In this document: positions 3,397 through 18,704 of the stretch, piece after piece | How the letters are laid out: the number at the start of each line of letters is the position of its first letter | Position numbering within the stretch: the first letter of the stretch is position 1 | From: a virus | Reading direction: 5' to 3' (one strand) | IMG/VR virus record: IMGVR_UViG_3300025282_000206 | Span: 1 to 26,159 of that record | Length of the DNA stretch: 26,159 nt | The notes under the pieces: model-generated | The model's database searches: none | Seen by the model: the letters and a program-made list of their open reading frames with translations, nothing else | What the model was told of the DNA's origin: nothing | Position numbers and translations under genes: made by a program

Positions 3397-4088
3397 TGGG
3401 CCTGTTCGGGAACCGGTCGCCACGTGGTGGGAGTCGCTGGGGAAGCGGGCTAGGCCTCGCGGGCGTTGAGGCTGGCGTTGACCGGATCAAGATCGACTAC
3501 AACGTTCTGGGGGTTGAAGAGTCTGACAGGTTATTCCGGCAACTCAACAGCAAGCTACAGAGGAAGGTGACGCGCAAGGCTATCAACGCGGCTGCGCGTC
3601 CAATGGTCAAGCGTGTTCGTCAGCTGGTACCAAAGAAGACGGGGTTGTTGAAGCGGTCGATTACGCACCGCGTCAAAGCGTACCGCCGCGGAGGAATCCA
3701 GGTGGCGGTAATCGGGCAGCGCGGAGCCGGTTCAAAGTCAACGAAGGCGCTCGCCGCCGCGCAGGGCCGCGCGTTGATGTCGCGAGGAAATCGTGGCGGC
3801 ATTTCAGGGAAGGGAAAGATCGTACCCATCCACCTCGTGGACCAGCCAACGAAGGCGCACCGCATCAGACCGAAAGTCGCCAGCGCGATGGCTGGCGATG
3901 TGCTGGTATTCAGACGCTATGGGAAAATCAATTGGGAATCGGTAGTGAACCACGGCGGTACGCGCGGGTACAAGTTTCTGGCGCGGGCGTTTTCCGGTAC
4001 TAGTCGCCAGTCCCTACGCGCGTTTGAGACCAAGTTTCTCAACGAGGTATATGCTGAGGCGTCGAAGATATCGCCAACGGGGAAATGA
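3396..4088 (+). CDS. HK97 gp10-like head-tail/tail completion protein
   Basis: The 230-residue product contains the gp10-family core: LNSKLQRKVTRKAINAAARP, then RVRQLVPKKTGLLKRSI and IQVAVIGQRG, and a C-terminal FLARAFSGTSRQSLRAFET helix. HK97 gp10-like proteins act in completing the tail end that joins the head. AAGGAGG at 3382-3388, seven bases before the ATG, and a one-base overlap with the previous stop support the start. The N-terminal 30 residues are rich in glycine and arginine (MGLFGNRSPRGGSRWGSGLG), longer than in typical members, and may be an added basic tail. A lysine- and glycine-rich loop lies in the centre. Confidence 0.85.
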   Translation: MGLFGNRSPRGGSRWGSGLGLAGVEAGVDRIKIDYNVLGVEESDRLFRQLNSKLQRKVTRKAINAAARPMVKRVRQLVPKKTGLLKRSITHRVKAYRRGGIQVAVIGQRGAGSKSTKALAAAQGRALMSRGNRGGISGKGKIVPIHLVDQPTKAHRIRPKVASAMAGDVLVFRRYGKINWESVVNHGGTRGYKFLARAFSGTSRQSLRAFETKFLNEVYAEASKISPTGK

Positions 4089-4516
4089 TGGCATCTGTCG
4101 GGGAAGACTTCCGAACGTTTCTGCTGGCTCAGTCTGCGATCGCTGCGCGTGTTGGAACGCGGGTATTTCAAAACGAAGTCACGCAGGAGCAGGGTGCTGA
4201 CGTTGAAGACTATATCTGGTTTGAGCGTGCAAGTATTGAACGCGAGCAAGTGCTCAGCGCCGCCACTGGCGTCCGTCCGTTCCGTGAGTTCCTGAACGTC
4301 GAGGGTGTGAGCACGTCGATTGATGACGCGATGGACCTGGCGGACGACTTGCGGAAGTTGGACGGCAGCCAAGGGACGTTCGGGAGTGGTCAGGTTCTGG
4401 CGGTATTCGTGAACGAGCACAGCGACGACTATATCCCGCGTAGCGACCTGTCAGATACTGGACGGCATGTCGCCGTGCTGACTTTCCAAGTAGTAGGACA
4501 CGACCCTGGGAGTTGA
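4085..4516 (+). CDS. Tail completion/terminator protein (DUF3168-like)
   Basis: This 143-residue protein begins with EDFRTFLLAQSAIAARVGTRVFQNEVTQ, the typical opening of gp17/DUF3168 tail-completion proteins (a short helix, then a V-x-x-R-V-x strand). YIWFERASIER and a later helix MDLADDLRKLDG followed by beta strands complete the fold. Members cap the tail tube and prepare it for joining to the head. The start overlaps the preceding stop (ATGATG at 4085-4090), so the second ATG at 4088 is also possible. It is followed after a few bases by the tail tube gene, the usual order. Confidence 0.85.
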   Translation: MMASVGEDFRTFLLAQSAIAARVGTRVFQNEVTQEQGADVEDYIWFERASIEREQVLSAATGVRPFREFLNVEGVSTSIDDAMDLADDLRKLDGSQGTFGSGQVLAVFVNEHSDDYIPRSDLSDTGRHVAVLTFQVVGHDPGS

Positions 4517-4520
4517 AAAT

Positions 4521-4946
4521 ATGGCTAACACAATTATCGGCTACGGTTCTATTGTCAAACTTGGTTCCACCGCGCAGGGCGAAGTGAGAACTCTGACGCC
4601 GCCGCCACAAACGTACGAGCGTGTCGCGATCGACCATCTTGGGAGCACATTGAGGTCAGAACTGCAGGGGATAGAAGACACGAGCGACTTCTCTTTTGAG
4701 CAGCTGTGGGAGCCTGGCGACAGCAACCACGCCCTGGTGGACACGGACTTTGCTGATCGCACTGAGAGCAGCTGGTCGATCGTGTATCCCGGTGTGAACG
4801 ATGGGAGTGGCGGGGCGCTGACTGCCACGCAGACCTGGACATTCAACGCGCGTGTCATGTCGATAGAGCCGGCGGCGCTGGAGAATTCGTCCGTAGTATC
4901 TAGAACGGTAACACTGAACCGGACGGGTGCGATCACGACATCATGA
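4521..4946 (+). CDS. Major tail (tube) protein
   Basis: This 141-residue, beta-rich protein directly follows the tail terminator and precedes the chaperone genes, the position of the tail tube subunit in siphoviruses. The sequence begins MANTIIGYGSIVKLGS, alternates short strands and turns, and contains SSWSIVYPGVNDGSGGALTA and WTFNARVMSIEPAALENSSV, matching the strand-loop-strand style of lambda gpV / TP901-type tube proteins. There is no added immunoglobulin-like domain. GGGAG at 4508-4512 precedes the ATG. The call is based mainly on order and general composition, since tube proteins diverge strongly. Confidence 0.8.
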   Translation: MANTIIGYGSIVKLGSTAQGEVRTLTPPPQTYERVAIDHLGSTLRSELQGIEDTSDFSFEQLWEPGDSNHALVDTDFADRTESSWSIVYPGVNDGSGGALTATQTWTFNARVMSIEPAALENSSVVSRTVTLNRTGAITTS

Positions 4947-5287
4947 GCGAGACAATAACGCTGGCCGGTATCGTCTACTCGCTGCTTCCCCTCGAACCGA
5001 ATATCGTGTTCGAGATGCGGCACCATGCGAGGACAGAAAACGCAACGACCGTTGCGGAGTTGTCGAGCCAGCATCAACGGTCGATTGTGCAACTAGCGTT
5101 GCGGAAGCGAGGCACGGCAGCGATGCCGTTCAGCGGCCCGCGCGGCGGGCTGGAGCTGGAGACTGTGGTGGGACGCGAGAGGTTGATTGAGGTTGGTCAG
5201 GATATCGCCGAGCGGCATCAGATTTTCAAGTCAGGAGCGATCGATGGGTATAACGCTGGATCAACTGAGGGAGCGGCGACCGAGTGA
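4943..5287 (+). CDS. Conserved-looking tail-region protein of unknown function
   Basis: This 114-residue protein starts on an ATGA overlap with the tail tube stop, so it is probably translated by coupling. It is mostly alpha-helical by composition, with a glycine-rich middle (FSGPRGGLELETVV). It lies between the tail tube and the G-like chaperone, where some phages have an extra tail-assembly protein. I see no diagnostic motif. It may be a small tail accessory protein or an upstream assembly chaperone. It overlaps the next gene by 44 bp. Confidence 0.65.
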   Translation: MSETITLAGIVYSLLPLEPNIVFEMRHHARTENATTVAELSSQHQRSIVQLALRKRGTAAMPFSGPRGGLELETVVGRERLIEVGQDIAERHQIFKSGAIDGYNAGSTEGAATE

Positions 5288-5606
5288 GAAGACTATAGAC
5301 GTTCCGGAATGGGGAGGGGCGGTCACGCTCAAGCGGCTGACGGCGAGAGAACAATTAGACGTTGCAGCTGGATTCGAGACGCTGGACGTAGACACGGATC
5401 AGGCTCGCGGGGTACTTGCGATGTGTGAACTGATTCGCCGAACGGTGGTCGACGACTCTGGCGAACTCATATTCGATTCAACGGACGGTCGAGAGTATCT
5501 GGCTCGCGAATCTATTGCGACCCTGTCGCGAGTCGGTAACGAGGCCATGGCGATGCACAATTTTGGCGAAGTCGAAGAGACAGCGCAGGAACAAAAAAAA
5601 AGCTAG
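5244..5606 (+). CDS. Tail assembly chaperone, short (G-like) form
   Basis: This 120-residue protein is made when ribosomes read the frame to its TAG stop at 5604. It begins MGITLDQLRERRPSEKTIDV, with an acidic, helix-rich body (TAREQLDVAAGFETLDVDTD) typical of phage tail assembly chaperones lying between tail tube and tape measure. The frame extends upstream to 5187, but GGAG at 5234-5237 lies six bases before ATG 5244, which is the better start. The last codons run over nine consecutive A bases (5593-5601), a slippery sequence that also yields a longer protein. G-like chaperones bind the tape measure protein and recruit tail tube subunits. Confidence 0.82.
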   Translation: MGITLDQLRERRPSEKTIDVPEWGGAVTLKRLTAREQLDVAAGFETLDVDTDQARGVLAMCELIRRTVVDDSGELIFDSTDGREYLARESIATLSRVGNEAMAMHNFGEVEETAQEQKKS

Positions 5607-5941
5607 AGCGGTCGACGTGGTGGAGGTTCGCCTTCGTACTGTGTGAGCATATCGGCATTTCCCATCCGGACTATCTACTCGAACCAGGTGGGCCTCTGTC
5701 ATGGTCACAGTTCTCGGACTGGCTCACTCGATACGAACAGGAACCGTGGGGAGAGACGAGAGCGGACGCGCGTGGCTACGCGCATACAATTATCGGGTTG
5801 GCTCCGTACTCAGGCAGCGGTGCGACGATGCCGAGCGGCGACTGGCCATACTGGGAAGAGCAGGCGAGCGACTGGGACCCGACGGACGCCCTAGAACGCG
5901 TAAGGGAATACAACCGAACCTATGGCGAAGGTAGTCAGTAA
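5244..5941 (+). CDS. Tail assembly chaperone, long GT-like form made by -1 frameshift
   Basis: Slipping back one base on A_AAA_AAA at 5594-5600 joins the short chaperone (119 codons) to a second open frame at 5600-5938, stop TAA 5939-5941, giving about 232 residues. The second part has no usable start codon of its own near its beginning, yet reads as a compact protein: WWRFAFVLCEHIGISHPDYL, then WSQFSDWLTRYEQEPWGETR, ending ALERVREYNRTYGEGSQ. The W-L-x-x-Y-x-x-E-P-W-G-x-x-R-x-D-x-R pattern is typical of the T part of lambda-like G/GT chaperones, where the minor long form is needed for tail length and assembly. It ends 20 bp inside the tape measure gene. Frameshifting itself is inferred from the sequence; the open frame and A-run are directly visible. 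Confidence 0.82.
5593..5601 (+). promoter_or_regulatory. A9 slippery site for -1 frameshift
   Basis: Nine A bases lie directly before the stop of the G-like frame. Read in the zero frame as CAA AAA AAA AGC TAG, they allow both tRNAs to re-pair one base back, and the -1 frame continues as AAG CTA GAG. An A-run this long could also cause slippage of RNA polymerase. No obvious strong pseudoknot is seen just downstream by eye. Confidence 0.8.
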
Positions 5942-7328
5942 ACTCTCGATCATGGTCAGCGCTAATATCAGCGCTGTCAATAAAGCGTTCCAACGTGTCG
6001 GAGCGAGTGCGAAGAGCCTGCGCAGTCGGTTGGGGAAGGGTGGCGCCGCGGCTAGGGGCGGCGGTGTTGGTGGCGCCGCCGCGGGGATGATGTCGGGCGG
6101 TATGGGCCTGGCGATGAAAGCGGTGCCGGCATTGGCGGCGATCGCATCGGTGGGCATGGCAATCCGGAAAGTGAGTATGGAGTTCTCCGCGGCGACAGCG
6201 CGGATAGATCAACTCGCGAAAGTTTCAGCGAAATTGGGAATGACAACCAACGCGCTGAACGGCCTAAGGAATGCTGCTTCCAAGTCGGGTGTTGCGTCGA
6301 CGACTCTCGATATGGCAATGCAACGCATGACCAGGCGAGTCGCCGAGGCGGCGGTTGGGACGGGTGAAGCGCAGGCGGCGCTGAAGGAGCTGGGAGTCGA
6401 CGCGGTTGAACTCAGCGCGTTGTCGCCAGATGAGGCGTTTCTCAAGATCACGGACGCATTGGAGAACGTGCCGAACCAAGCGGACAAGTTGCGTCTCGCG
6501 TTCAAGCTGTTCGATTCCGAAGGTGCCGCGTTAGTCAATACGATGAACATGGGATCGGACCAGATACGCGCGTACATGAAGGAATCGGAACGCCTGAATG
6601 GTTTGTTGGAGGGAGACGCCGAGCAGGTCGAAGCGTTCAACGATGCCGCGGACGATATGGGGAAAGCGTTCGAGGGGCTCTGGAACGAAATTGCAATATT
6701 TATGATTCCGGTATTGCTCAAGTTCGTTGAGGGCTTGAAGGAGTTCGCAGTGGCGGCAAAGAATGCGATGAGGTGGATTACGGGTCGCGAGTTCGACGCT
6801 GACACGTCTGGTGCCGAGAAGAAAATGGAAGCTAAGAAATTGGCAGCGAGACAGAAGGCGGAAAAGGAGCGCAGCAGGCTGGAGCGAGAACAGCGAGAGA
6901 AGGACGCAAAGAAAACACTGGACGATATGCGGAAGCGAGGGCAGCAGATTCGCGAGTCGATGGCGACGCCTTTTGAGAAGGCGCAAAAGAAGCTGGCTGA
7001 CCTGGCGCATCTGTTTAAGGTGGGGGCGATCGACGCGCAGACGTTCGGGCGTGCGACCGCCGCCGCGCAGAAGGAGTTGTTCGCCGCAACGGCGATCAAG
7101 CCAACAGAAGCCGAAGCGATGCGGCCCGCGATCGCTGCCGCGCAAAAGGGAACCATGGCAGGATTCGCGGCGGTGTTGCGTGGTAAGGAGGCGGCCCGCG
7201 CGGCAATGGAACAACGCAAGCGGCTGTTGAAAGAAGCGGAGCGGCGGCGGCGTCTGCTCGAACAAATAGAGCGGAACACGCTGCCGGCGAATCAGGCCCC
7301 TGTCCAGAGCGTGAGTATCTCGCCATGA
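5922..7328 (+). CDS. Tape measure protein (short)
   Basis: The 468-residue protein lies directly after the chaperone frameshift gene, the standard place for the tape measure. It has a glycine/alanine-rich stretch near residues 38-62 and a hydrophobic segment (GLAMKAVPALAAIASVGMAI). Long helices follow with TMP-like wording (AALKELGVDAVELSALSPDE), then a second hydrophobic stretch (IAIFMIPVLLKFVEGLKEFA). A highly charged coiled coil around residues 300-350 (KAEKERSRLEREQREKDAKK) comes before more helices. Tape measure proteins set tail length at roughly 0.15 nm per residue, so this one suggests a short tail near 70 nm (inference). ATG 5922 is used; ATG 5952 is an alternative. No lytic domain is seen in it. 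Confidence 0.88.
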   Translation: MAKVVSKLSIMVSANISAVNKAFQRVGASAKSLRSRLGKGGAAARGGGVGGAAAGMMSGGMGLAMKAVPALAAIASVGMAIRKVSMEFSAATARIDQLAKVSAKLGMTTNALNGLRNAASKSGVASTTLDMAMQRMTRRVAEAAVGTGEAQAALKELGVDAVELSALSPDEAFLKITDALENVPNQADKLRLAFKLFDSEGAALVNTMNMGSDQIRAYMKESERLNGLLEGDAEQVEAFNDAADDMGKAFEGLWNEIAIFMIPVLLKFVEGLKEFAVAAKNAMRWITGREFDADTSGAEKKMEAKKLAARQKAEKERSRLEREQREKDAKKTLDDMRKRGQQIRESMATPFEKAQKKLADLAHLFKVGAIDAQTFGRATAAAQKELFAATAIKPTEAEAMRPAIAAAQKGTMAGFAAVLRGKEAARAAMEQRKRLLKEAERRRRLLEQIERNTLPANQAPVQSVSISP

Positions 7329-8434
7329 CGATAACAGATATCACGCAGGCGTGGTCGGCAACGAAAGGCGCCACGAATAATAAGGGCCGCGAATACACAG
7401 CGAGTTATAACGTTGAGACGGACAGCTATAACGACCAGGTCAAAACAATCATTGACTACTTCGCGACCAATACAACTTTCAACGGTCTGGCGATTCCATA
7501 TCTGAACAAGCCGTACCAGTTCGGAAACGATCTTGACGTGATGGCGCTGTGCGATTCGGTTACACCGTCGCGTGTATCTGGCTCGCAATATAATTGGACT
7601 GTCGACTTTCACTACAAAACGGCAGACCAGGAGGAAGACGAGACGCAGGAGGATGAGAGCGGCAACGCGTCGAACAACCCGATGGACTGGAACTGGACTG
7701 TTGATATTTCATACGCCGACTACAGTCGCCCCGTAACGCATGCGACGTACCGCGGCGGCCATACTGGTGACAATTTTCTAGACGTATTCAACACGGGAGA
7801 CGGGGCCGATCAGGCGATCATTCCCCCAATGAACTCCGCGGGGACAGTATTCGACCCGGCACTGGAACGAAGCGCATTGAGACAGGTATTTCGGTTCGGG
7901 AAGTATCGCCACGAGTATCCAGACGGCATGGCGGACAACTGGCGAGCGGTCAACTCGAAAGCATTCGGAATCAAAGTAAAAGATCCGAACGTGGTCAACA
8001 AAAACGGGCGCCCGAGAACAGACAAGACGCTTATCTCTTGGAACTTCGAGCCGTTCCAGTGCCAGGTCGTCAGCGCAAACGCATCAGTCGTTCGCCAGAA
8101 CAATATGACGGTGTGGAAGATTTCCAGCGAGATTCACGCAGACTATGAGTTCGGGTATAGGGTGAAGATCGCCGACCGTGGGATTGTGGCACTCGGCAAC
8201 GCAGGCGCCCCGGATGGTATCGGCGGGTCGTTATCGTCTGGGAACCCAGCGTCTACAGGCATCCCGGAAGATCGCACTATGCGAGACGTGCTAGGTAACA
8301 CGCTTGCCGAGCCGGTATTGCTCGACGGGAACGGTCAGCCATTGGCGAAGGGACTACCGGCGGTGTACTTGGAGTGGTCGATCTATCCAGAGATCGATTT
8401 TGGCGACTTCAACGAATGGCTCCCAATCAGATAA
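7325..8434 (+). CDS. Probable distal tail / baseplate protein
   Basis: This 369-residue protein starts on an ATGA overlap with the tape measure stop, where distal tail proteins usually lie. It is aromatic-rich and beta-rich, with an N-terminal domain (SYNVETDSYNDQVKTIIDYF, then VTPSRVSGSQYNWTVDFHYK), an acidic linker near residues 100-112 (DQEEDETQEDESGN) and a larger C-terminal domain. The last part, EPVLLDGNGQPLAKGLPAVY followed by EWSIYPEIDFGDFNEWLPIR, resembles the ending of tail-tip associated proteins in environmental siphoviruses, where a P-x-L-L-D-G-x-G element is followed by a final strand. No enzymatic motif is visible. The role is inferred from position. Confidence 0.6.
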   Translation: MTITDITQAWSATKGATNNKGREYTASYNVETDSYNDQVKTIIDYFATNTTFNGLAIPYLNKPYQFGNDLDVMALCDSVTPSRVSGSQYNWTVDFHYKTADQEEDETQEDESGNASNNPMDWNWTVDISYADYSRPVTHATYRGGHTGDNFLDVFNTGDGADQAIIPPMNSAGTVFDPALERSALRQVFRFGKYRHEYPDGMADNWRAVNSKAFGIKVKDPNVVNKNGRPRTDKTLISWNFEPFQCQVVSANASVVRQNNMTVWKISSEIHADYEFGYRVKIADRGIVALGNAGAPDGIGGSLSSGNPASTGIPEDRTMRDVLGNTLAEPVLLDGNGQPLAKGLPAVYLEWSIYPEIDFGDFNEWLPIR

Positions 8435-8447
8435 AAGGGAAAACGAT

Positions 8448-9074
8448 ATGCCGAGGACAACGTTTGGGGATTCAATCTTCGTACCTGGCGACATCACATA
8501 TAGCGGTTCGCTCGTACCGGGCGTCAGTCGCGCCGATATTGTGCAACAGGATTTGCAGGAGTATGCGATACCGTTCACCACTATGAGAGTTCATGACAAC
8601 TTGTCGGCTCTATTGCCTGCGACCGCCGCGGCTGACGACCTCGGCCTGAGTGGCGCGGTGTTTGGTACGGAGTCGCCATATCTAATTACGGCTGACGCAA
8701 AGGCGACTACCGTAACGGCCTACGGTCGCTTTCAATTTCCATTGCCAGTCGAGTATACAAGTGGCCAATCTGTGCGCGTTGCAATCCACTGTGGCATGGG
8801 TACGACCGTGTCGGACACATCGGCAACCGTAGACGTCAGCGCGTACGAGTCAGACGACGAAGGGGCGGTCGGTAGCGATTTGGTTTCAACGGCGTCGACG
8901 AGTTGCAACTCGCTTACTATGAGCCAAGTACAGTTTGTGATAACGGCGACAGCATTAGAGGCGGGAGACGTATTAGATTGTCGAATTAAAGCGGCCATAA
9001 CTGACGCTTCGACTGCGACCGGTGTGTATGTGAAGATCGGCCGCGTGGCCATGCTATGCGACATCAAGGCGTGA
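8448..9074 (+). CDS. Putative beta-rich virion (tail-tip or decoration) protein
   Basis: The 208-residue protein is rich in Ser, Thr, Val and Asp with repeated short strands, like an all-beta exterior domain. The N-terminus (MPRTTFGDSIFVPGDITYSG followed by SRADIVQQDLQEYAIPFTTM) looks like a conserved arm. The C-terminal 130 residues (VYVKIGRVAMLCDIKA at the end) look like a jelly-roll or beta-sandwich. The frame is open from 8304, but AAGGGA at 8435-8440 precedes ATG 8448, which begins 13 bases after the previous stop. I do not recognise a named family. It may bind the tail tip, the capsid or a receptor. Confidence 0.6.
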   Translation: MPRTTFGDSIFVPGDITYSGSLVPGVSRADIVQQDLQEYAIPFTTMRVHDNLSALLPATAAADDLGLSGAVFGTESPYLITADAKATTVTAYGRFQFPLPVEYTSGQSVRVAIHCGMGTTVSDTSATVDVSAYESDDEGAVGSDLVSTASTSCNSLTMSQVQFVITATALEAGDVLDCRIKAAITDASTATGVYVKIGRVAMLCDIKA

Positions 9075-9075
9075 T

Positions 9076-9432
9076 ATGCTAACGTTCGACTCGAACTCAG
9101 TTCGCAAGTTGCAGGCGGATCACGCGCGACTGGCGCACATGCCTCGCAGCCCGGTGCCTGCGCGGTCAACGAGTCGCCCGCCGCCAGCCGGCAACGGCGC
9201 TGCGTTCTACCCAGCTAAGACAACGTCGACAATTACCGCGATGTCGGACGATGCGCCTGGGAGCGGAACGGCGAAACTCGCCAAACTCAAGAGTGATGGA
9301 GATCTTGACGCGTTCAGCGATGGCGATCTGGTGGTGAATAATATCGGCGGGGCGGTCGACAGCAGTACCTATTGCCTCATCGCGCAAGATACGTTCGGAT
9401 CGTGGTGGCTCGTCGTTGTCCCGTGCGAGTAA
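9076..9432 (+). CDS. Small putative virion protein
   Basis: This 118-residue protein has a basic, proline-rich N-terminal half (HMPRSPVPARSTSRPPPAGN) and a beta-rich C-terminal half. That half reads TTSTITAMSDDAPGSGTAKL, then NNIGGAVDSSTYCLIAQDTF and ends GSWWLVVVPCE. The order (T-S-T-I-T-A, P-G-S-G-T-A, N-x-x-G-x-x-V, then a final W-x-V-V strand) is like small OB-like phage structural domains found next to cysteine-rich tail proteins. No function is established. It begins one base after the previous stop, and its end lies 7 bp before the chosen start of the next gene. Confidence 0.55.
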   Translation: MLTFDSNSVRKLQADHARLAHMPRSPVPARSTSRPPPAGNGAAFYPAKTTSTITAMSDDAPGSGTAKLAKLKSDGDLDAFSDGDLVVNNIGGAVDSSTYCLIAQDTFGSWWLVVVPCE

Positions 9433-9439
9433 GAACGCG

Positions 9440-11119
9440 ATGCCGTGGAAGCGCGACAACCCGGGCTGCGACTGCTGCGGGTGTGAGCGTGTTGATGATC
9501 AGTTCGACACGGACACAATCGCGAACTACACCCAGTCGATAGGCAGCTGGGCGATTGCGGACGGCGTGCTGGCGACGAGCAGCGCCAACGCGGTCCTGAA
9601 GGCGAACACCACTGGACAGATTTACCAGCGAGTGGCCACCCGGTTTCGTTCGCCTGACCGGCAGCGCGTCAAAGTGCTGGCGGGAATGACCAGCGCGACA
9701 CAGTACCTCTACGCGCTGGTGACGTTCGACGACGACCCGTCAGCGTGTGGGTGGCTGGAGATCCGAAACAAAACGGTCGGCGATGACGAGCGGATTGGTG
9801 AACGGCTACGCGTGACGCATCTCGACCCAGACGTCTTCCATGATCTGTCATTGTGCGTGCAGCCCAATAGCGATCTATCCGAGGCTGCGCTATACGCGGC
9901 GCTCGACGGCGCATGTGTGTATGCGTTACTCGAACAGACACCAGGCGTTGGCGCAGGCCTCGGGACTGGCGATGCGACTGGTGATGTCGAGTTCACGAGC
10001 TTCCTCTGGACTGATTCCAAAACGGAGGACAACGAGTGTCCGGACTGCGGGTGCGACTGCGTGACGAGTGGGGACGGGTTCGGCTCCATTCCGCCATCCG
10101 GGCTGGACCTGGACGGCGAGGACGATATCGGCTGTCTCTGGAAAATCTGCGCGCCGAACTGGCGTTTGACCGGTGGACTGCTCGCGGGCTGGGGAGACGC
10201 GGACGTGCAGCATCTTGTCCCGATCGACCCGCGCGCAGAGTCGCAGTACGCGAGCGTCGAGGCCAGAGGTTCTGGCGGCACCAAGGCACTGCTTCACATG
10301 GCGATGGCATGCGGATCGGCGTCGTCACTGAGCGCGGTGATAGAGTTCTCTGACGCACCAGGCAAAAGCAAGGTCGCGATATCTAAGGACAACGGCTCGA
10401 CGTACGAAACTTGGAAATATATCGACACGGCGATCACACAGTTCGGAACGGGCCGCCAGGAATTCACGAAGCTAACCGCATGCCTCAAGGACGACCGGTT
10501 TCACGTAGAGGCGAATTCCCAGCGAGTGCAGACATCCGCGTCGGACGCGGGAGACGAGTTATTCTGCGGGCTCGGCGTCCGATACCATGCCGCCGGCGAG
10601 CCTGTCACGGGCCTGCGCGAGCCTGTATTCTTTGACGAGTTCGAGCAAGGCGACCCAGTCGACGCATGCGGCAAATGTGAATCGGCCGAGGGAGTGGGCG
10701 GAGGTGTCTGCTCACACTGTATCGACGAGGTGCCGCGGCACCTATTAGTAACGCAGCCTTCTATGTCGAGCGCCGGTTGTGCGAACTGCGCCGATCACGC
10801 TGGCAATTACTTGTTGCCACAACGAGTTCAGGATGATGGCGCGGAGTTGTGCTGTGTGTGGTCGGCAGTGACAACGGCCGGTTGCCCAGCCACGGCGGCC
10901 GGCGGCACCGCGTCACTGTGTTTCGACGGCACTGATTACGTGCTGCGGTACGTGCTATCGGGTAGGTTCTTTAACACGATCACGGAGTCGCACGCGTGGA
11001 GCGTAAACCTAGGAGCGGACAAGCCGGACTGCACGACGTTCAACGAAACACTGCCGCTGGATAGTACGGCCGGCGGCTGCTCGGCAACGGGTACAACTGT
11101 CACGATTAAGGCGGCCTAG
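9440..11119 (+). CDS. Cysteine-rich multi-module virion protein with lectin-like domains
   Basis: This 559-residue protein (from ATG 9440; TTG 9416 is an in-frame alternative) is punctuated by clusters of cysteine. NPGCDCCGCERVDDQF opens it, NECPDCGCDCVTSGDGFG separates the first and second modules, and CGKCESAEGVGGGVCSHC separates the second and third. Module one (residues about 15-205) reads QFDTDTIANYTQSIGSWAIA then DGVLATSS, the wording of a LamG/concanavalin-type jelly-roll. Module two (about 220-405, with LTGGLLAGWGDADVQHLVP) appears to repeat that plan. Module three ends DSTAGGCSATGTTVTIKAA and contains NCADHAGNYLL and ELCCVW. The cysteines may bind metal or form disulfides. A carbohydrate-binding or tail-tip adhesion role is likely but inferred. 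Confidence 0.6.
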   Translation: MPWKRDNPGCDCCGCERVDDQFDTDTIANYTQSIGSWAIADGVLATSSANAVLKANTTGQIYQRVATRFRSPDRQRVKVLAGMTSATQYLYALVTFDDDPSACGWLEIRNKTVGDDERIGERLRVTHLDPDVFHDLSLCVQPNSDLSEAALYAALDGACVYALLEQTPGVGAGLGTGDATGDVEFTSFLWTDSKTEDNECPDCGCDCVTSGDGFGSIPPSGLDLDGEDDIGCLWKICAPNWRLTGGLLAGWGDADVQHLVPIDPRAESQYASVEARGSGGTKALLHMAMACGSASSLSAVIEFSDAPGKSKVAISKDNGSTYETWKYIDTAITQFGTGRQEFTKLTACLKDDRFHVEANSQRVQTSASDAGDELFCGLGVRYHAAGEPVTGLREPVFFDEFEQGDPVDACGKCESAEGVGGGVCSHCIDEVPRHLLVTQPSMSSAGCANCADHAGNYLLPQRVQDDGAELCCVWSAVTTAGCPATAAGGTASLCFDGTDYVLRYVLSGRFFNTITESHAWSVNLGADKPDCTTFNETLPLDSTAGGCSATGTTVTIKAA

Positions 11120-18120: not shown

Positions 18121-18362
18121 GCGAATATAGCACCTTGATTGTGCGAGCCGGTTCGAAGGTATCGCCCGGCGCCCGCGGGCAACGCGTTACCGAAAGAGTC
18201 TGGCACAGCGTGGGGCGACGACGCACAACACGCATGCGGCAACGCAGTCAGGTCGGCGGGGTACGAACGTCAGTCGACTAATAAATGGGCGCAGAAAGGG
18301 AGAGCAGCAGAACACTCCGCGGCGGTTGCCGTGGGGTCGCTGCGTACCTAGGGGAACACACA
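18121..18362. other. Non-coding stretch between helicase and zinc-finger gene
   Basis: These 242 bases hold open frames, but none has a convincing Shine-Dalgarno sequence or recognisable protein pattern. A GGTTCGA at 18150-18156 looks like a tRNA T-loop, but flanking bases do not form a T-stem or a cloverleaf. The promoter of the downstream small-gene operon may be here; no confident -35/-10 pair was found. Confidence 0.4.
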
Positions 18363-18704
18363 ATGGGGAAGCAGTCGAAAACGGCGGACCATGGCGGCAA
18401 CCGTAAAACGTTCGTTAGTCTCAGAACTGGCTCGGCTCGCAGTCTACGTTGTCGCGATTGCGACAAGCTTCAATACGTAGCACGGGCGGCATTCTTCCGA
18501 TCGAAAGCGCCGCGCTGCTACTTATGCGGCGGCGTGATTGTGGAGACGCCGATGGGGCAAAAGAAACGAACGGGCCTGTCAGCTGCGCAGCTGAAGGGCG
18601 GCTGCCCAGGCGTTAAGCCTTTGCGGTGTCCATTCTGCGAGACAGCCTTCAGAAGCGAGGCGGGCCTCAACTTGCATATACGGGACAACCACGGTGACGA
18701 ATGA
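18363..18704 (+). CDS. Small protein with zinc ribbon and C2H2 zinc finger
   Basis: The 113-residue protein has two probable zinc sites. The first is a CxxC pair at 30/33 (LRCRDCDKLQ) with a second CxxC at 52/55 (RCYLCGG), forming a ribbon. The second, CPFCETAFRSEAGLNLHIRD followed by NH, has the C2H2 finger spacing C89, C92, H105, H110. Both can bind nucleic acid. ATG 18363 is preferred because GGGGAA lies just upstream, although the frame opens at 18285. It is probably a regulator or a nucleic-acid-binding accessory protein of the replication block. Confidence 0.72.
   Translation: MGKQSKTADHGGNRKTFVSLRTGSARSLRCRDCDKLQYVARAAFFRSKAPRCYLCGGVIVETPMGQKKRTGLSAAQLKGGCPGVKPLRCPFCETAFRSEAGLNLHIRDNHGDE

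Follow-up and report, generated by a model that had tools for sequence, protein, structure and literature searches.

A putative G/GT-type tail assembly chaperone with a start-less T part in the -1 frame behind an A9 run in an uncultivated phage

What does an uncultivated phage encode between the stop codon of a short tail assembly chaperone gene and its tape measure gene, where no open reading frame (ORF) with a normal start makes a convincing gene? The question is raised by IMG/VR virus record IMGVR_UViG_3300025282_000206, of which positions 1 to 26,159 were analyzed (26,159 nt, one strand; hereafter the window). The short gene ends on a run of nine adenines (A9), and a long -1 frame lies open beyond it. 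On the sequence evidence, the locus very probably encodes a chaperone pair of the phage lambda G/GT type, produced by programmed -1 ribosomal frameshifting, a shift conserved in a wide range of long-tailed phages (PMC5009743). The window G/GT is an ordinary, divergent and new case of an arrangement well described across tailed phages; it leaves the known mechanism unchanged and supplies the one part of this phage's tail module, T, that a start-codon-based gene caller would miss.

The G-type chaperone gene runs from ATG 5244 to 5606 on the plus strand and encodes 120 amino acids (aa) ending in EQKKS. It matches phrog_344, 'tail assembly chaperone' (E 2e-11), a hidden Markov model (HMM) of its relatives matched it alone in the window (E 6e-17), and the G family profile matches the HK97-type chaperone structure 2ob9 (E 0.0016). 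At the 3' end of the G frame, A9 was read directly at 5593-5601 of the plus strand and is the sole A- or T-run of at least 8 in the whole window. The zero frame ends CAA AAA AAA AGC TAG, with the stop TAG at 5604-5606, and the slippery heptamer A AAA AAA at 5594-5600 (plus strand) lies in phase, its zero-frame codons being AAA 5595 and AAA 5598. In the -1 frame the nearest stop upstream is TAA 5537; the frame then stays open over 5540-5938 and stops at TAA 5939-5941; counted from AAG 5600 it contains 113 codons, which give the T part its extent (5600-5941, plus strand) and a slipped product of 119 + 113 = 232 residues. In the +1 frame of the A9 region a stop is reached at 5644. The first ATG, GTG or TTG in the -1 frame is TTG 5798, past the conserved core of T, and the core is therefore out of reach of a normal start. 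Two start-codon ORFs within the interval (5643-5894 and 5701-5934) were rejected as genes, as their translations look non-coding, with odd codon-position GC and many arginines. All of this agrees with the first-pass annotation, which had placed a slippery A9 run at the end of the zero frame, given the same lengths and coordinates for the A-run, the 113-codon stretch, its stop TAA 5939, the 120-aa chaperone and a slipped product of about 232 residues, and found neither a start codon for T nor a convincing gene with a normal start. In first-order Markov simulations, an open run of 115 codons has P ~0.02 and an A9 anywhere on the plus strand of the window P ~0.03; taken singly, neither the open frame nor A9 is decisive, and phase, position and homology carry the case.

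The -1 frame product is predicted to be a diverged Phage_tail_T domain (PF06223, E 5e-4). The 534 stop-to-stop ORFs of the window served as the search set for the T profiles. A profile from 13 relatives, built without the window, picked out this ORF alone (E 7e-5, or 0.003 with the frame of one row corrected), and a wider profile drawn from about 105 relatives, also excluding the window and with the relatives' T domains located from a seed set picked by eye beside G, matched it at E 4e-10 as the sole hit, the next best being at E 1. Among 75 aligned T sequences, which include the window's own and one near-identical copy, 67 match Phage_tail_T independently (E 0.01 or better; best E 1.7e-24). 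The structure model of T is helical, with a block-mean predicted local distance difference test score (pLDDT) >90 over residues 11-50. The first-pass annotation had looked to T-domain families for this product; Phage_tail_T did match, below its cut-off, whereas the Pfam search gave no match to the DUF4035-like family that it also named. Two further candidates from the T search (L004 and L005) were discarded as chance matches, as the matching stretch is internal to a long reading frame that is unrelated, and mainly the local string EYNRTYGEGS is in common.

Both G and T matches were found in 124 records, three of which are this virus (the window and two near-identical contigs) and some others near-duplicates. 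T lies in the -1 frame in 121 of the 124, and an in-phase X XXY YYZ heptamer is present in the overlap in 112 of those 121: A AAA AAC in 67, G GGA AAC in 15, G GGT TTC in 9, A AAA AAA in 8, and a few others. After removal of identical junctions, the 108 distinct overlaps hold 101 in-phase heptamers versus 7 and 25 in the other phases, which gives a phase-controlled view of the slippery heptamers used in one chaperone family. Across these relatives the -1 frame and the phase of the putative slippery site are conserved, and together with the phrog_344 and T profile matches this supports the frameshifted G/GT chaperone that the first-pass annotation had proposed. In two uncultivated IMG/VR relatives (L043 and L092) A AAA AAA stands as far ahead of the G stop as in the window (-10), in an A7 rather than an A9, and in L056 and L132 A AAA AAG occupies the same place relative to the G stop. 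Three records, L015 (G stop 4142), L019 (G stop 4319) and L135, have T in the +1, not the -1, frame, and TTT CGN stands in their G frame shortly upstream of the G stop. This is a candidate +1 slip site, at which tRNA-Phe would move from UUU to UUC, and within one chaperone family the shift seems to have switched direction.

A close known counterpart is the G/GT pair of lambda (Levin 1993; Xu 2004, 2013, 2014, as reviewed in PMC5009743). As in the window, a short G lies between the tail tube and tape measure genes, T is reached only by a -1 slip near the G end, and T resembles the Pfam family 'Minor tail protein T' (PF06223); the window differs in its slip site, A AAA AAA inside A9, and the sequences are only distantly related. 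Others are the chaperone genes of the Rhodococcus phages Jflix2 (18/19), REQ1 (gp76/77) and Shagrat (19/20), whose G proteins are ~32-36% identical to that of the window and whose T likewise lies in the -1 frame, in REQ1 and Shagrat with no start ahead of the T core. Unlike the window, Jflix2 has G GGT TTC 40 nt upstream of the stop; no heptamer was found in REQ1 and Shagrat under the strict pattern. The T of Moraxella phage Mcat9 (AKI27410/AKI27409) is ~27% identical over its full length (E 0.9 alone) and lies in the -1 frame, with A AAA AAC in phase at the G end.

Annotation of these phages bears on whether T could instead be a separate gene, translated with no frameshift from a non-canonical or internal codon of the -1 frame. 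CTG 5639, ATC 5651 and ATT 5657 are in frame close to where T begins, a few relatives have ATG or TTG near the G stop (L011, L054, L118, L018 and L021), and the Mcat9 T is annotated from a start near the G stop, as one of two separate genes. In Jflix2, however, the annotation joins the chaperone as a frameshift product, a start codon ahead of the T core is absent from most relatives, a conserved KKL.R stretch that belongs to the family alignment lies ahead of CTG 5639, and the slippery heptamers are conserved in phase; we consider a separate T gene very improbable. In Mcat9 (L021, 2525-2854, AKI27409) the separate T has been annotated from an internal start despite the in-phase A AAA AAC, and for REQ1 and Shagrat, too, the annotation gives two separate genes.

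Homopolymers are the usual site of sequencing and assembly errors, and an A-run of the wrong length could have split what is one continuous G and T frame in the real genome. The two near-identical IMG/VR contigs (L002 and L003) align to the window without gaps at 99.7% nucleotide identity and keep A9 with no indel. Their single nucleotide polymorphisms relative to the window all lie outside 5244-5941, none within G-T, and these differences argue against an assembly error and give no gauge of selection on T. As A9 is common to three metagenomic assemblies that are distinct elsewhere, a homopolymer error is unlikely, and since G and T are also in different frames in relatives, we give this explanation almost no credence. 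The differences between the window and these contigs cluster (4028-4206 and 1309-1393), while 4207-9636 is identical, a pattern that looks like exchange between close variants. Near-identical phage DNA was also sought among isolated phages, and none was found.

If programmed -1 frameshifting operates here, most ribosomes would stop at TAG 5604 and release the 120-aa G. A minority would re-pair from AAA AAA at 5595-5600 to AAA AAA at 5594-5599, one base back, the likeliest event being that two lysine tRNAs slip in tandem on A AAA AAA, and would then read AAG CTA GAG and continue to the end of a 232-aa GT protein. In lambda a low-level -1 shift makes GT, with G binding to the tape measure and T to the major tail protein (PMC5009743). 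By analogy, the G part would coat the tape measure, the T part would recruit the major tail tube protein, and both would depart before tail completion. The sequences show how the genes are laid out, that both domains have homologues, that T has no start codon and that relatives keep the frame and the slippery phase; the slippage itself, its rate and these assembly roles we infer.

Several results weigh against this account. The window T scores 20.8 bits against PF06223, below the gathering score of 25.9, and has no match in PHROG. G-T is identical in the near-identical contigs, so that selection at close range is not measurable from them. In E. coli, A_AAA_AAA is reported to shift much less readily than A_AAA_AAG (PMC5009743). 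The 3' flank of the slip site folds no better than shuffled sequences (z +0.73), and no stimulatory stem-loop is therefore seen, although a pseudoknot was not searched for. No Rfam family was found.

The missing stem-loop would also suit transcriptional slippage, in which RNA polymerase lengthens A9 by one A, to A10, and brings T into frame, and which would therefore yield the same GT protein as the ribosomal -1 slip. A9 exceeds the length that the heptamer requires, and only 5 of 126 G-bearing records have 8-9 consecutive A near the G end, three of the five being this virus and its copies. Slippage of this kind on an A-run is on record, at ~20% on A11 in Citrobacter tssM (PMC4256274). Against it, the heptamer is kept in phase across relatives, those of the relatives' heptamers that offer the polymerase no long homopolymer favor the ribosome, and L043 and L092 have A7, not A9, at the same place. 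We regard it as unlikely that GT is made mainly in this way, and doubtful to a like degree that RNA polymerase slippage on A9 sets the G/GT ratio here, partly or wholly; were it so, the lineage would have swapped ribosomal slippage at the tail chaperone gene for transcriptional slippage, or combined the two.

The surroundings of G and T have the gene order head protease, capsid, connector, tail tube, G, T and tape measure. The T domain would be expected to partner the major tail (tube) protein, whose gene lies at 4521-4946 on the plus strand (phrog_158, E 7e-12; PF16461, E 1e-5, just below the cut-off). G sits between the tube and tape measure genes, separated from the former by an unassigned ORF (4943-5287). 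The tape measure gene (5922-7328, plus strand; phrog_9483, E 2e-43) starts within T and shares the last 20 nt of T. Its product, at 468 aa, is short for a long-tailed phage, and a 369-aa ORF with no significant family match follows directly (7325-8434). PDB matches of the A3 and A2 profiles, which were to designed or repeat proteins, were taken as composition artefacts.

An archaeal host, prompted by a weak DUF7410/zinc-finger match elsewhere in the window, was unsupported by protein charge and by the nearest isolated phages. The match lies in a small basic protein encoded at 18285-18704, whose C-terminus resembles a C2H2 zinc finger (DUF7410 and zf-Di19, both below cut-offs).
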